Made by a program: the position numbers and the translations under genes
Assembly (NCBI GenBank): GCA_030620115.1
Contig: JAUXFG010000213.1
Span: forward strand, 1-5,581
Source of the DNA: Candidatus Fermentibacterota bacterium
Lineage (GTDB): Bacteria > JAFGKV01
DNA: 5,581 bases
Direction of reading: 5' to 3'
Part shown: positions 1-5,365 of the stretch, in pieces
Layout: each line of letters opens with the position of its first letter
Numbering within the stretch: the first letter of the stretch is position 1
The notes under the pieces: generated by a model
What the model saw: only the letters and a program-made list of their open reading frames with translations
The model's database searches: none
Told to the model about the DNA's origin: nothing

Positions 1-3000
1 CTAAGACCGCTTGGCCTCCGACTTCTGCGTTCCCATCTTCCCCACAAGGACCAGTTTTGGGCGTCGTCGCTTTGTCGATGCTCCGAAGAGGAGCCTGCGG
101 CTTCCACGAGCCATCGGTTCTTGCCCCGAGGCAGGAGGTCCAGTGTGGCGCGATAGGTATCGAGTGTTCCCGATGCGGTGATGGCAGACGAGTCAGCCGT
201 GGTCTGCTCCGAGCGAGTCATCCGCAATCGCAGGCTACTGTAGCGGGGAAGATAGATCACGGGGCCACCGCCAATCAGCCTATTGCGGGACATGGAGACG
301 TCCTTTGGGCCGCCCACCTCATCCAGGACATCAAGAAAGCCCAAGCCGGCGTCTACACCGCTGAAATCGTCCCGTAGGCTGCGTGAATAGGTTGCTTCCA
401 ACTGGACAGGCACTCTTCCCGGGCGCCACACCACAGACGTCAGCAGGCTCCGGTCGAGGCTGACGTCCTTTTCTCCCTCATCGAACTCTCCGGTGCCGAC
501 CCTCCCCTCTCCCCGCGCGTAGAGATCGATTCCCTTGAGCAGCGAAGAGCTCATCAGGGATATGCGCCCATAACCGTCTCCTGAAAGGCGAGACTCTCCC
601 TCGGTGCTCAGAGAATCGGCTCGACGGCCCCATGAATAGAGCGCGAGGTCAAAGAGCCCGCCGGGATTCAAGTCGAGCCTTCCCAATGCGCTTCTGTGTC
701 TGGTTTCTCGTGCTCCTACATGCTGTCTCGATTCGTGAAGCCTCGTCTGAACGCGGAGCTTGTTGAGCCATGGAACGGAGGAGGCGTGATACTCCGAACC
801 CACTTCCATCTTCTTCCACTCAGTTGACAGTGTGTCGCCTTCCCAAGACTTGCCCGCGACCTCCATGCTCAATGAGGGAAGCCCGGCCCGGTTCCAAAGC
901 ACCGTGCCGGCGCCTGTCTTCCCAGTTGCAGAATCCGTACGCATCCAACCGAGGCGCCACAAGAGCGGAAGCTCGTGCATAGGCTCCAGCCTGCCGGAGA
1001 GCTCGAAGTCGTCTATGAGAGAACCAAGCTCTTCACTGCGGCGCGCATCGGTCTCTATCTCCACGGGCAGTACAACTCCTGAGAACTGAAGCTCTATCCG
1101 ATCCGCCGAGTAAGAAAAAGAACCCCGTCCGCCCAGTTCGCTCTCATCAGGCGACACCAATAGCTCGTGTTGGATATTGAGCCTTCTCTCAGCGTCAGGA
1201 TCGGAGCGCCATCGCGCGGAAGTGGAGATCAGATTACGTGTGGAATCATCGGATGCTTCGTGGAGTGCCGACACAGTGGCGGTGAATCCGTCGCCCCGAT
1301 TGTACATGATCTGCGGCACTACGAGGGTAGCGCGGTCCTCGGCGTCATCGAGCCAGTAGTCATACTCAACGCGAATGACGGAATCTTCCGTCACCAAGTC
1401 CCTTTCCTGGAATGAGAGAAAGAACGAGCCGCTGCTGTGATCCAGTGTATACTCGCCTTCCTGGAGTAACTGGTCGTCAATGGAGAGCCGCACAGTACCG
1501 ATGACGATTTTGCCTCGAGACAGGTGGTACGCCGGCGCGCCACCCTGGAAAAACTCCGTGGCGTGGCCTGTGGTACGCTCACCGGCCCATAGATTCATTT
1601 GCGCGGCGCGTCGATGCCTTTTCGGGCTTCTCCCTCCAGTCTCTGCCCAGAGATATCCTCCCTTGTAGCCGCTCTTTCCCAAGAGCTGGGCCAGTTCGGG
1701 CTCCGCTGTTCCCCACCCAGCGCTCGCCTCCCGCAAGACCGCATCGGTCTCTCCCTTATACTGAGCTCCCCACCGGTCTCCCAAGAGCAAGTCGGTGTTG
1801 TCATAGAACGCGGTGAATCGTTTGCTTCTCCCCGAGAGTCTGATTCTGTGGCGATAGGAACTGTCCCAACCGCTGTCGAAGATATCCCAGTCATTTCGGT
1901 TTGCCTGAGCGAGATACGTGTAGGTGCCGAGGAGGTTTATTGGCGGAGCAGGCGGGAGTGATAGCTCGAGTCCACTGTCGCCCAGCCGAACATGCGGACC
2001 GACATCACGAGTCTGGCCGCTCTTCTGCGGCGGCTCGCGAAGCCTCCACTCACCTTCGTCCTCCAAATACACGGCAAGGAACCCCAGACCAAGGGCCACC
2101 AATCGTTTCCCTGTACTCGTGATCCTGACCAGAGGGGATTTTGTGAGACCGTCGACCTGTCCAGGGAATGTCAGATCTCCCTTGAGCTCGGCGAGATCAC
2201 CTTCTGGAGTGAACACCGCAAGTAGTTGGTCCGTGGAAATGTACAGTTTGCCTTGATGGAGGGTGGCGTCCAGAAACTCGACACCGGTGATGCGCGAGGA
2301 CCAAGGGGGGATCCGATAGGATTCGCCTTCGATGTCATAGACCACGAATCCATCCCGAAAGAGCAGCCAGACGAGACTGCCCTGTATCACCACCTGTGCT
2401 GGGGGATCAACCTGGGCCTCAAAAGGAGGAATGACACGCCATGTTTCCGATGTGGGGTTGAATCGGGCAATGCCGTCGGAGCCGAATAGCCAGAGCTCAT
2501 CACCGACCTGTTTCATCCACGAGAGAGACTTCAGTGGAACGTCTATCTCCGTTTGATAGACACGGATCTTTTCATACAAAGGATCGAACCTGAATAGCGC
2601 GGCACGGCTGCACAGCCAGACATCTGATCCGAGAAAGACAAGATCGAGCAGTGTATCGGCTCCGGTTGCGAAGAGGGTCCACTCCTCAGCGTACGGGTCC
2701 ATCCTTCCTAATCCACCATGGCCGGCGACCCAGATCGCGTCCTCGCCAAATGCCAAACCAGCGTAGCCCGGGAGCGGGGCGCCTGTCCCCGGGCCATAGG
2801 TAATCCAATCGTAGTACCGTGTGTCGGCGTTGGCAAGAAGATCATCCGCTGCCACCCAGAGTATGCCGTCAAACAAGTGGAGCTCTCGCAGCTCCTTGCC
2901 CTGCATCTCGAGAGGCAATTGGATATGGCTCCATTCCAGGTTCGCGGGGTCACAACGCAATAGAGACGACCCGTCTATGACGAATAGGATTCCTTCCTCA

Positions 3001-3089
3001 TCCACGGCCCATTGCGCGGGGCCACCCGCACGAGCGGATTGCCTAGCCAGAAGGAGAAAGGCAGCCAGGACCAGCAATCTCGCCGTCAT
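1..3089 (-). CDS. Large exported beta-propeller / outer-membrane barrel-like protein, 3' end beyond window (partial)
   Basis: Reading the minus strand from ATG at 3089 gives 1029 codons plus 2 bases with no stop, so the gene continues past base 1. Residues 1-21 are a signal peptide: basic start, hydrophobic core LLVLAAFLLL, and ARA before G22 as an AXA signal peptidase I site. Residues 34-350 form a repeat domain with aromatic anchors at F36, W78, W120, W158, W200, W241 and Y283, spaced 38-42 residues, followed by an eighth looser unit near 330-350. Several units end in D-P-x4-W (D131-W137, N211-W217). This fits a seven- or eight-bladed beta-propeller. Residues about 440-520 contain a Y-x-G and GWG segment and FFQGG, and 538-578 hold a strand-turn module (LLQEGEYTLD ... 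GSFFLSF ... IRVEYDY). From about 590 to 1029 short alternating strands separated by charged loops resemble an outer-membrane beta-barrel. Function is unknown; a surface or outer-membrane role is inferred. It is the third gene of the probable operon. An in-frame ATG at 3107 is an alternative start, but 3089 has a better ribosome binding site. Confidence 0.85.
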   Translation of the reverse strand, partial: MTARLLVLAAFLLLARQSARAGGPAQWAVDEEGILFVIDGSSLLRCDPANLEWSHIQLPLEMQGKELRELHLFDGILWVAADDLLANADTRYYDWITYGPGTGAPLPGYAGLAFGEDAIWVAGHGGLGRMDPYAEEWTLFATGADTLLDLVFLGSDVWLCSRAALFRFDPLYEKIRVYQTEIDVPLKSLSWMKQVGDELWLFGSDGIARFNPTSETWRVIPPFEAQVDPPAQVVIQGSLVWLLFRDGFVVYDIEGESYRIPPWSSRITGVEFLDATLHQGKLYISTDQLLAVFTPEGDLAELKGDLTFPGQVDGLTKSPLVRITSTGKRLVALGLGFLAVYLEDEGEWRLREPPQKSGQTRDVGPHVRLGDSGLELSLPPAPPINLLGTYTYLAQANRNDWDIFDSGWDSSYRHRIRLSGRSKRFTAFYDNTDLLLGDRWGAQYKGETDAVLREASAGWGTAEPELAQLLGKSGYKGGYLWAETGGRSPKRHRRAAQMNLWAGERTTGHATEFFQGGAPAYHLSRGKIVIGTVRLSIDDQLLQEGEYTLDHSSGSFFLSFQERDLVTEDSVIRVEYDYWLDDAEDRATLVVPQIMYNRGDGFTATVSALHEASDDSTRNLISTSARWRSDPDAERRLNIQHELLVSPDESELGGRGSFSYSADRIELQFSGVVLPVEIETDARRSEELGSLIDDFELSGRLEPMHELPLLWRLGWMRTDSATGKTGAGTVLWNRAGLPSLSMEVAGKSWEGDTLSTEWKKMEVGSEYHASSVPWLNKLRVQTRLHESRQHVGARETRHRSALGRLDLNPGGLFDLALYSWGRRADSLSTEGESRLSGDGYGRISLMSSSLLKGIDLYARGEGRVGTGEFDEGEKDVSLDRSLLTSVVWRPGRVPVQLEATYSRSLRDDFSGVDAGLGFLDVLDEVGGPKDVSMSRNRLIGGGPVIYLPRYSSLRLRMTRSEQTTADSSAITASGTLDTYRATLDLLPRGKNRWLVEAAGSSSEHRQSDDAQNWSLWGRWERRSRRPSGL
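22..1349 (-). other. Barrel-like C-terminal part of the large exported protein (protein domain)
   Basis: This stretch encodes roughly residues 581-1023 of the large protein. It has no recognisable enzyme motif. It is a succession of 8-12 residue segments with alternating polar and hydrophobic or aromatic residues, joined by charged or glycine-rich turns. Examples are TSVVWRPGRVPVQLEATYS near residues 886-904, LRLRMTRSEQT near 955-965, and RWLVEAAGSSSEH near 991-1003. Such a pattern is typical of transmembrane beta-barrels of the outer membrane. The barrel cannot be judged complete because the C-terminus, where a terminal aromatic residue would be expected, lies outside the window. The barrel reading is inference from pattern alone; a stack of extracellular beta-sandwich domains is the alternative. 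Confidence 0.45.
1356..1478 (-). other. SprA-like strand-turn module in the large protein (protein domain)
   Basis: Residues 538-578 read as a hairpin-rich module: DDQLLQEGEYTLD, then H-S-S-G-S-FFLSF, then an SVIRVEYDY strand. The arrangement 'V-D-G-x-L-x-x-G-x-D-Y-x-I-D-x-x-x-G-x-I-x-F ... S-x-I-x-V-x-Y-x-Y' recurs in giant outer-membrane proteins such as SprA of the type IX secretion system and in large surface proteins of related phyla. The upstream segment (residues about 440-520, with Y-K-G-E and FFQGG) also recalls the 'GVRYRGREDD' region that precedes this module in those proteins. The similarity is recalled from family patterns and has not been tested by alignment. Confidence 0.45.
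2037..2990 (-). other. Seven- or eight-bladed beta-propeller region of the large protein (protein domain)
   Basis: Residues about 34-350 are built from a repeating unit of about 42 residues: a hydrophobic pair followed by W-V or W-L (for example IWVAG, VWLCS, LWLFG, VWLLF), then G-rich turn, then R-(M/F)-D-P or N-P, then W and a strand. Anchor positions F36, W78, W120, W158, W200, W241 and Y283 give spacings of 42, 42, 38, 42, 41 and 42. The last unit (330-350, LVALGLGFLAVY then EW) is spaced by about 48 and may close the ring or be an eighth blade. The pattern resembles Kelch-like or two-component-regulator-type propeller repeats, which usually bind proteins or glycans. No catalytic residues are recognised, so the ligand is unknown. 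Confidence 0.7.
3027..3089 (-). other. Signal peptide of the large exported protein
   Basis: The first 21 residues have a basic residue near the start (R4), a hydrophobic core of about 11 residues (L5 to A15), and a c-region ending A19-R20-A21 before G22. This is a typical Sec signal with signal peptidase I cleavage after A21. There is no lipobox cysteine, so a lipoprotein is not indicated. If the upstream ATG at 3107 is used, six residues (MRDRIP) are added to the basic n-region and the signal still works. Confidence 0.75.
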
Positions 3090-3098: not shown

Positions 3099-3110
3099 AT
3101 CCCGCATTTC

Positions 3111-4229
3111 TCATCCCGCGTCCGCCGCGGGACCCGAGCGCCATCCTCGCGGCCACCGGTTGAGCGCCCAGTCGTCGAGTAATCCCTTGACGTCCAACGG
3201 AGTGCGGGGCTCCCATCCAAGGGCCTTTTTCCAGTATCGTGACGCCTCCATGCATAGGTACACAGGGAGGCCATACCGTCGCAGCCGGCTGGTCAGCTCC
3301 GAGTACATCTTGAATCTCAATTCGGGCAAGTATCTGAATCTGCCGTCATAGCCCTTCTGCAGTTCCGCCAGGTCTAGTGTTGTTGAGGGATTCCAGGTTC
3401 TCATGCGATACCGGAGCGTCTTATCCAGGCGCAGAGTGCCCAGGCTGACCCAGACGATCGCCTCCGGATCCAACAGGTCATCTATCATCTCGACCACCTC
3501 ATTATAGCGTCGCTTCCACTCCTCCACCTCAACCAAGGGATCGAAATGGAGCCCCACTCTATAGCCATGCTCCTGAACGGTGGCCGCTGCTTTCAGCCGC
3601 TCCACAAGGGAGGCAGTTCCGCCTTCTTCCTGCTCCACGATCTGCGGGAGCGAAAGGCTGAAGGATACAATGGTTCTGTATCCATGATCGAGACCAAGGA
3701 GGTGATGAACTCGGTTGCTCTTGCTCTTGAGTTCGAGGAATCCTTTGGCTTTCGACGCGAAGAGCTCGACCAGATACGGCGATATCCCCGCGATGTAGTC
3801 CAGCGCAAGGCTGTCACTAAATTGGCCTGTTCCCACCCGGTGGATCTTTGTGTGGGGATTGAAGACGTTCCGTTCCAGCTCAGCTTCGAGGTCCTCTGTG
3901 TTGGCGTAGATGGTGAGGAAAGGGGAATTAATGACCGCCCCCAATGCACAATACGTGCAAGAGAACGGGCACCCGTTGATCACGTGAAGGATGAAGTAGG
4001 CGCAGCAGTTTGATCCTTGATATCCAGGGCACAGCTTGAGGAATCTTCCCCGCTGCTTTGCAAGAAGAAGACGACAGCCTCCATCCTTGTCCGGATCTGC
4101 CTTGTGGAGCGTGCGTGATTCTTCTTGGGTGATGTGTCGAGTGGGGATGGTCGGCAGGGCAGTCTGGGCTTGACGCGTTATCCACGAATCCGCCACAGCA
4201 TCTTCGATCAGGAGCTCCTTGATGTTCAA
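3111..4229 (-). CDS. Spore photoproduct lyase family radical SAM protein
   Basis: The protein is about 372 residues from the TTG at 4229, or 390 from ATG at 4283. Numbering here is from the longer start. The radical SAM cluster motif C-x3-C-x2-C is C105, C109, C112 (GCPFSCTYC), which would hold a [4Fe-4S] cluster that cleaves S-adenosylmethionine to a 5'-deoxyadenosyl radical. Family features follow: KLCPGYQGSNCCAYF before the motif (C85, C93, C94), GTGQFSDSLALD at 151-162, an ELKSKS segment near 184, HFDPL at 246-250, WVSLGTLR near 278-285, and YLCMEA at 342-347. These match the SPL-like branch common in bacteria that do not form spores. True lyase activity is doubtful: aligning the S-D of GTGQFSD with the C-T-S-D of the spore enzyme puts Q154 where the H-donor cysteine (C141 in Bacillus subtilis) should be. 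No spore or DNA-repair genes are nearby. The TTG start is preferred because GAGGAAGG lies 9 bases upstream and it overlaps the glycosyltransferase stop; ATG 4256 and 4283 lack a good ribosome binding site. Substrate unknown. Confidence 0.88.
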   Translation of the reverse strand: MNIKELLIEDAVADSWITRQAQTALPTIPTRHITQEESRTLHKADPDKDGGCRLLLAKQRGRFLKLCPGYQGSNCCAYFILHVINGCPFSCTYCALGAVINSPFLTIYANTEDLEAELERNVFNPHTKIHRVGTGQFSDSLALDYIAGISPYLVELFASKAKGFLELKSKSNRVHHLLGLDHGYRTIVSFSLSLPQIVEQEEGGTASLVERLKAAATVQEHGYRVGLHFDPLVEVEEWKRRYNEVVEMIDDLLDPEAIVWVSLGTLRLDKTLRYRMRTWNPSTTLDLAELQKGYDGRFRYLPELRFKMYSELTSRLRRYGLPVYLCMEASRYWKKALGWEPRTPLDVKGLLDDWALNRWPRGWRSGPAADAG

Positions 4230-5365
4230 GGTGAGGCGCCTTCCTCGGCGAGACATTCCAGAGCCGTCACGAGATGATCCCATGAGAAGCGTTTCTTGTA
4301 TGCCGCAATGTGTGCAGCGAAATCCGTATGGTCCTTTGCGGCCGCAAAGCGCTGAATTGCCACCGCCAAGGCTTCGGGATCATTGGCAGGAATCACGAAC
4401 CCTGTTTTCCCTTCTTCAACAGCCTCCGGCAAACCACCCACGTCACTTATGATGACCGGCTTGTTGAAGTGATAGGCGATGGGGAGAATGCCGCTCTGGG
4501 TTGTGGTAAGGTATGGCAAGGAGACGACATCGGCGGCCGCGAAGTACATCCCAACATCTTCATTGGGCACGTATTTGTTCACCACGGTTACTCTGCCTTC
4601 AAGACCTAGATCGGATATCTCATCTGCATACTCATCTACCTTTTCGTAGAACTCCCCCGCGATCAATAGACGGGCATTCATATGCTCGGAAAGCTTCGCC
4701 ATGGCGCGAATTGCCACATGCAGCCCTTTGTAGCGCCGTACATGCCCAAAAAACAGAATCACGATCTCCTTTTGGCCGATACCGAGTTTCACCCGCGCGT
4801 CGCTCCTTACCATGTGGTCACGAAACAAGTCGAAGATAGGAAGCGGGACGAGCTTGTGTGGCGCCTTGGGTCTCACGGCCAACAGATCGTGTTGTACTGA
4901 CTTCGAGTGAACGAGGAAGGCGTCGACCAGACGAAAGCCGACTGCGGTCAGAAACCGATCTCCCACACGGCGCTCATGAGGAATAATGTTGTGGCAAATG
5001 AACAGGATTCTCGCGCCGGTGAGGAATCGTGTCAGGAGTGCCACGCTGGAGTAACATGGCAGGAAGAAAGGCATCCAGTAATTGAAGATCACAAGATCGG
5101 GAGCATAACCCCGTATTTTTTGGGCTGTCCTTATCCAACTGATGGGGCAGATGGAATCCAGGAGCGGCTCGCATGGAACAGGATCCGTTACCTGACTTGA
5201 ATCCATCTGCGTGGTGCCCGGGAAGAAGAGCGAGGGGTACTGCCGCTTGAAGGAGAGAATCCTTACCTCGTGGCCACGCTTCCTAAGGCTCTCATAGAGG
5301 AGACCCAGGTAGTGCGCCATGCCCCCACGCATGGGGTGCGCTGTTCCAACGAGCACTATCCGCAT
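4226..5365 (-). CDS. Glycosyltransferase family 4 (GT-B fold), TQSG-type subgroup
   Basis: This 379-residue cytoplasmic protein has the usual length for a GT4 enzyme, which moves a sugar from a nucleotide-sugar donor to a lipid-linked or glycan acceptor. The N-terminal half (1 to about 185) is the acceptor domain: MRIVLVGTAH, then the glycine-rich loop R13-G14-G15-M-A-H, then HEVRILSFKRQYP and FPGTTQ at 48-53, and CHNIIPHE at 124-131. The C-terminal donor domain starts near 200 with LFFGHVRRYKG (204-214), includes AGEFY near 236-240, PYLTTTQSG at 284-292, NKPVI and DVGGLPEAVEEGKTGFV (308-324). The usual E-x7-E sugar-binding motif is missing; T288 and I296 sit at the two positions, and Q290-S-G takes the place seen in the 'TQSG' subgroup. 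Sugar and acceptor cannot be predicted. It is the first gene of the probable operon. An envelope or exopolysaccharide role is inferred. ATG at 5365 has AAGGGA 8 bases upstream. No membrane segment or signal peptide is present. Confidence 0.92.
   Translation of the reverse strand: MRIVLVGTAHPMRGGMAHYLGLLYESLRKRGHEVRILSFKRQYPSLFFPGTTQMDSSQVTDPVPCEPLLDSICPISWIRTAQKIRGYAPDLVIFNYWMPFFLPCYSSVALLTRFLTGARILFICHNIIPHERRVGDRFLTAVGFRLVDAFLVHSKSVQHDLLAVRPKAPHKLVPLPIFDLFRDHMVRSDARVKLGIGQKEIVILFFGHVRRYKGLHVAIRAMAKLSEHMNARLLIAGEFYEKVDEYADEISDLGLEGRVTVVNKYVPNEDVGMYFAAADVVSLPYLTTTQSGILPIAYHFNKPVIISDVGGLPEAVEEGKTGFVIPANDPEALAVAIQRFAAAKDHTDFAAHIAAYKKRFSWDHLVTALECLAEEGASP
4239..4246 (-). promoter_or_regulatory. 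Ribosome binding site deciding the radical SAM start
   Basis: On the minus strand GAGGAAGG sits 9 bases before a TTG at 4229, which overlaps the glycosyltransferase TGA as TTGA. Upstream ATGs at 4256 and 4283 have no purine-rich match of similar quality at the right distance. The residue pattern IKELLIED right after the TTG looks like the conserved start of SPL-family proteins, which argues that the preceding 18 residues are not part of the protein. Confidence 0.4.

Follow-up and report, generated by a model that had tools for sequence, protein, structure and literature searches.

The split gene and its setting

The analysed stretch of DNA, referred to here as the window, is the whole of contig C84 (5581 bases) from genome G000, an assembly of 4.1 Mb in 296 contigs. 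Its left part is occupied by the 5' portion of a long minus-strand gene for a putative exported propeller-barrel protein, upstream of which lie a radical-SAM gene and a glycosyltransferase gene on the same strand. The features, with their coordinates in the window and the evidence for each, are as follows.

1..24, minus strand: adapter remnant outside the gene (BGI/MGI adapter word AAGTCGGAGGCCAAGCGGTCTTAG)
25..3089, minus strand: propeller-barrel gene, 5' part, ~1021 codons (open frame; homologues in genomes G001 and G002; continuation on contig C162)
3027..3089, minus strand: signal peptide MTARLLVLAAFLLLARQSARA, followed by GG (sequence; cleavage site judged by eye)
2037..3011, minus strand: eight-bladed beta-propeller, residues ~27-351 (AlphaFold2, Foldseek, VIA-align, profile match)
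1530..1991, minus strand: junction domain, residues 367-520 (conserved in 7/7 family members from 3 phyla; HMM/profile matches)
1350..1526, minus strand: SprA-type module, residues ~522-580, HLSRGKIVIGTVRLSIDDQLLQEGEYTLDHSSGSF..SVIRVEYDYW (group-A barrel HMM matches SprA here)
25..1349, minus strand: rest of the barrel-like part, residues ~581-1021, continued on C162 (hairpins, alternation, C-terminal signature)
3111..4283, minus strand: radical-SAM gene, spore photoproduct lyase-related, just upstream (PF20903, 97.8 bits)
4226..5365, minus strand: GT4-type glycosyltransferase gene, upstream (PF13692, PF00534 and PF13439 over cut-off)

The preliminary description of this DNA had claimed a giant gene whose minus-strand frame, beginning at ATG 3089, stays open for 1029 codons to the window edge with 2 bases left over, and re-reading of the window sequence confirmed this frame; the accompanying remark that the closed frames within positions 1-3089 are small shadow frames only was borne out by the list of open reading frames. 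An in-frame ATG at 3107, upstream of ATG 3089, opens the frame. We took it to be a gene because the probability of its arising by chance was ~6e-17 at the base composition of the window and because its codon-position GC contents (63/48/65%) were like those of the neighbouring genes. The frame stood, but its final codons did not: the last 24 minus-strand bases of the window are AAGTCGGAGGCCAAGCGGTCTTAG, the beginning of the BGISEQ-500 left adapter (PMC10788357), and because the window edge is adapter sequence the terminal ..SRRPSGL of the reported frame is an artefact, leaving ~1021-1022 genuine codons. Contigs C57 and C88 carry the same word at their ends, continued there by GAA or GAAGACAAA, the next adapter bases. 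Remains of the BGI/MGI adapter occur on at least three contigs (C84, C57 and C88, at window 1-24, L003 1519-1542 and L004 1501-1524), and leftover adapter lengthens open frames artificially in the assembly of G000.

The missing stop codon, for which a leftward extension of the contig had been proposed, was located on C162, a contig of the same genome that overlaps the window in frame. Window positions 24-62, beside the adapter, matched the end of C162 at 92% over 39 bases, the mismatches sitting at the outermost C162 bases; the 3' part of the gene lies on the minus strand of that contig and runs for 109 residues past the overlap to a stop at C162:5267-5269, so that the joined protein ends in ..LFLDLKAGADF. 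The adapter at the contig edge and the mismatched outermost bases of C162 are what might be expected if the frame were an assembly artefact or a decaying gene, an explanation that we consider exceedingly improbable and that is already refuted as regards the frame: intact full-length homologues, 46-48% identical, are present in two other genomes, the C162 fragment aligned in frame with the C-termini of both at 48-49% identity, and the family profile strongly matched two pieces only in G000, those on C84 and C162, with no second full copy of the gene found in a profile search of the genome contigs. Judged from sequence, the two pieces are one gene, with a predicted joined product of ~1130 aa, and both the gene and its architecture are well supported, more so than the topology of the barrel or the function.

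No type IX secretion system (T9SS) gene lies beside the propeller-barrel gene. The window GT4 is 55% identical to the GT4 encoded directly upstream of the propeller-barrel gene in G001, while the G002 contig begins at the propeller-barrel gene. The radical-SAM gene scored 101 bits, below the NCBIfam equivalog cut-off of 400; this spore photoproduct lyase-like gene adjoins the glycosyltransferase gene. On C162, an isochorismatase-like hydrolase gene (recognised by eye; L005 4311-5240) follows on the same strand, 26 bases past the stop of the split gene, and in G001 a surE-like gene occupies this place.

Predicted architecture of the protein

The claimed signal peptide is evident in the sequence. 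The propeller, described initially as built of ~42-residue repeats, was recovered with blades of ~41 residues: the propeller alone (residues 22-363, modelled from a three-sequence alignment) reached an AlphaFold2 pLDDT of 83.7 and a pTM of 0.82, and the strands of the model fell into eight groups of 3-4, the structure prediction suggested for this part thus returning an eight-bladed propeller. When the model was submitted to Foldseek, BT4663 was the top match (E 7e-12) and BT4673 was among the best matches; the designed eight-bladed protein Tako8 had the highest TM-scores among the matches listed (0.67/0.72), and PorZ stood at rank 38. Comparison by VIA-align gave Z-scores of 23-26 against WD-type propellers, Tako8 and BamB, and at the sequence level profile A1 matched 3ott (E 8e-4) and 4a2l (E 1e-3). 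Neither the Pfam repeat model PF07494 (Reg_prop) nor PF21544, the PorZ N-terminal propeller, matched the window protein. The profile, AlphaFold2 and Foldseek results place the predicted fold close to solved Reg_prop domains; since propellers are widely alike, the structural matches indicate fold rather than function.

The junction domain carries the motifs FYDNTD....(W/Y)G..Y(K/R)G..D...(R/Q)E and GERTT...(E/D)FF.G. In all seven family members we found FY(D/N)(N/D)TD (FF in G002) and then G..(Y/W)(K/R)G, and a G...T..(E/D)(F/Y)F.G-like motif is likewise common to the seven.

A barrel-like C-terminal half of outer-membrane type is supported by the models and sequence patterns. Alternating stretches numbered 14 in the window barrel vs 8.1 +/- 2.7 in shuffles, an excess absent from the propeller part, and the C-termini of family members show the alternation seen in outer-membrane proteins and finish on F or L, with one break in the alternation in G106. 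Like outer-membrane proteins, the protein thus combines a signal peptide with an alternating C-terminal signature that closes on F or L. AlphaFold2 prediction of the full-length G001 homologue gave a pLDDT of 36, too low for a reliable fold, with the C-terminal 120 residues modelled at low confidence as long hairpins. The long barrel-like part that had been claimed is therefore supported by the C-terminal signature and by this hairpin-rich, low-confidence prediction. The preliminary description had named no known family with the full architecture, and Pfam and NCBIfam hold none that covers the propeller-barrel protein; a phmmer search of the PDB with the single window protein returned no significant match.

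Homologues and relation to SprA/Sov

The search for the same architecture elsewhere, which had been recommended, found it in six further genomes, with three phyla represented overall. A contig search with the window protein alone gave no matches; a three-sequence alignment then recovered full-length homologues, 46 and 48% identical, in both other examined genomes of the window phylum. These are G001 (contig JAFGKV010000147.1, record label Candidatus Fermentibacteria) and G002 (contig JALOPK010000364.1, record label Candidatus Eisenbacteria); the two records bear differing candidate-phylum labels, yet both are assigned to the family of the window genome. We refer to these two proteins and the window protein as group A. 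Group B comprises proteins of the same layout but greater length (1362-1406 aa) from G147, G392 and G393, which belong to one other phylum, and from G106, the single genome representing a third. Full-length hhalign comparison of groups A and B gave 99.5% (E 1.3e-22) over 856 columns, and by MAFFT the two were collinear at ~20% identity (15-16% for G106), with a ~250-residue block of group B missing from group A. The neighbours of the group-B gene in G147 and G392 differ from those in the window lineage. G318 and most other propeller matches were rejected as family members, being propeller-only matches. In G392, a KPNISxPNP-motif protein and a DEISGW-motif small lipoprotein-like protein precede the group-B gene (L084 10834-12325), and similar pairs were seen in G147 (L045 564-2458) and near the G001 SprA (L083 2395-3935), all by eye.

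Likeness to SprA/Sov, the T9SS translocon, was clearest in group B. The G147 protein matched TIGR04189 (E 1.3e-8) at the SprA-type module, and hhalign of group B against 31 SprA sequences gave 99.4% and E 2.6e-21 (G106, 9e-15), compared with 0.07 for the best of 20 shuffles and 0.56 for a TonB receptor; the alignment spans residues 228-619 of the G001 SprA, with the group-B proteins matching SprA over ~330 columns. The group-A barrel compared directly with SprA by hhalign was not significant (E 0.04), so the link between group A and SprA rests on the intermediates and one module. With the group-A barrel HMM, the best matches among 243 ORFs from the retrieved loci were the G393, G147 and G392 proteins (1.5e-20 to 8e-16), with G106 next (2e-9); SprA proteins followed, the best of them at 1.2e-7. 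The matches to SprA and to a protein on contig C139 run through one 50-90-residue module, of DYxxDYxxG type (TIGR04189 positions ~583-651), which is present in the window protein (HMM best E 1.2e-7).

The window protein did not reach the TIGR04189 cut-off of 200 bits and had no NCBIfam match even at E 10. The N-terminal SprA block (~residues 230-620 of the G001 SprA) is present in the G147, G392, G393 and G106 proteins, and group A lacks most of it. A tree built from the region in common placed group B in a single clade (support 0.998) outside the sampled SprAs, among which the SprA of the window genome clustered. Sequence comparison, then, links the window protein to SprA through descent via group B and through one common module, and leaves it outside SprA membership. 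The first interpretation of the locus held for its signal peptide, propeller and barrel-like part; the adapter and the relation to SprA had gone unnoticed. A literature search that took in few subscription papers found no propeller-SprA fusion.

SprA/Sov (TIGR04189; PDB 6H3I, 6H3J) and the window protein have in common the barrel module, Sec export, an alternating C-terminal signature and occurrence in the same kind of genome. They differ in length (~1130 aa vs ~1900-2200 in the retrieved SprAs) and in the N-terminal propeller, which was undetected in the 20 SprA-type proteins that were the best barrel matches of a wide search; the window protein is, moreover, without the SprA hallmark block and far below the family cut-off, and its group-B relatives branch outside SprA in the tree. 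The 1218-aa protein on C139 of G000 (L023 1880-5536) is outer-membrane-like and carries the same SprA module; its gene directly precedes one at L023 258-1880 that by eye looks to encode a BamA/TamA-type barrel, and frames of 1100-1300 aa resembling it turned up in many genomes in the wide search.

Possible roles beside the type IX translocon

G000 has a canonical SprA, which scored 370 bits against the TIGR04189 cut-off of 200, with neighbours on C28; its gene is split over contigs C28 and C277 (L086 1-3504; L087 866-3559). The genome also gave fourteen PorV-family matches, several of them over cut-off, and ~70 sorting-domain matches, with a model that matched in two control genomes as well. 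The PorZ model PF21544 had no match in three genomes, a search that is uninformative because no positive control matched. We read the window protein as a new variant, a SprA-related barrel with its own propeller, and the explanation that we tentatively favour, at somewhat less than an even chance, is that this exported protein, made up of a propeller and a SprA-stock barrel, resides in the outer membrane and works alongside the canonical SprA, as an accessory or an alternative component, without replacing it. Against this explanation stand the non-significant direct hhalign comparison of the group-A barrel with SprA, the missing hallmark block, the low-confidence full-length model, the differing gene neighbours in G147 and G392, the lack of an adjacent T9SS gene and the sorting-domain matches in control genomes.

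The mechanism we propose begins with a Sec signal peptide that would export the ~1130-residue protein to the outer membrane, where a beta-barrel of the same stock as SprA/Sov would be inserted. On the simplest reading the propeller would face the periplasm, in front of this SprA-derived outer-membrane pore. Domains that precede a barrel usually stay periplasmic, as in PgaA, BcsC and TamA. The propeller may bind a glycan or glycan-bearing cargo, perhaps one that the neighbouring glycosyltransferase helps to make, and may then hand it to the barrel or gate the barrel; the protein would thereby take part in handling type IX cargo or glycans. With 36 strands, SprA is the largest outer-membrane barrel whose structure has been described, and its pore is closed on the periplasmic side by the Plug and at the lateral opening by PorV (PMC7463736). 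That the propeller substitutes for the SprA Plug is speculation.

The parallels with BT4663 and PorZ and the adjoining GT4 gene make it plausible that a glycan, or glycosylated cargo, is recognised at the pore. The closest solved propellers by profile and by Foldseek are those of the hybrid two-component periplasmic sensors BT4663 and BT4673 (Reg_prop PF07494; 3ott, 4a2l), the former a sensor of heparin and heparan sulphate according to its structure title; unlike these sensors, the window protein is without a kinase and Y_Y_Y domain and has the barrel-like part in place of a signalling part. PorZ (PF21544; PDB 5M11) is a T9SS propeller protein of noted similarity to BT4663; its ligand is A-LPS, which it presents to the sortase PorU (PMC8545088). 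It resembles the window protein in having a Reg_prop-like propeller, and the G147 protein weakly matches PorZ_N. PorZ, however, has two propellers, each seven-bladed, followed by a T9SS C-terminal domain, and has no barrel (PMC8545088), whereas the window protein joins one eight-bladed propeller to a barrel-like part.

A competing explanation has an appreciable chance of being correct while falling well short of even: the protein may serve the outer membrane as a glycan receptor or in a structural role and reuse SprA-like modules, its propeller capturing polysaccharide and its barrel serving as an anchor, with no protein moved. The closeness of the propeller to the heparin sensor by Foldseek agrees with this, as do the recurrence of the common module in the large outer-membrane-like protein on C139 of the same genome and the length of the window protein, ~60% that of SprA and without its hallmark block. 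Group B, however, retains the SprA hallmark region (E 2.6e-21), and therefore translocon descent is favoured over module reuse alone. The position of the glycosyltransferase genes, close upstream on the same strand in G000 and immediately upstream in G001, would also suit a polysaccharide exporter in the outer membrane whose substrate is made with the GT4, the propeller acting as a periplasmic guide; this we consider quite unlikely, since no polymerase or Wza/Wzc-type gene adjoins in the stretches read, no adjoining GT4 gene was seen in the other lineages, and Pfam and NCBIfam revealed no likeness to known exporters.

It is conceivable, if unlikely, that the proteins of groups A and B form a second, propeller-gated translocon line, descended from an ancient SprA relative in several candidate phyla, in which a periplasmic plug and the glycan-binding function of PorZ are fused; such a line would move or decorate a dedicated set of cargo in parallel with the canonical type IX system. 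SprA has been regarded as a single translocon with a single role. A distinct lineage of shorter, propeller-bearing proteins in three little-studied bacterial groups, coexisting with SprA where this was checked, would serve as a natural experiment on the roles of the translocon parts and may reveal how the pore came to be linked with cargo recognition or glycan attachment.
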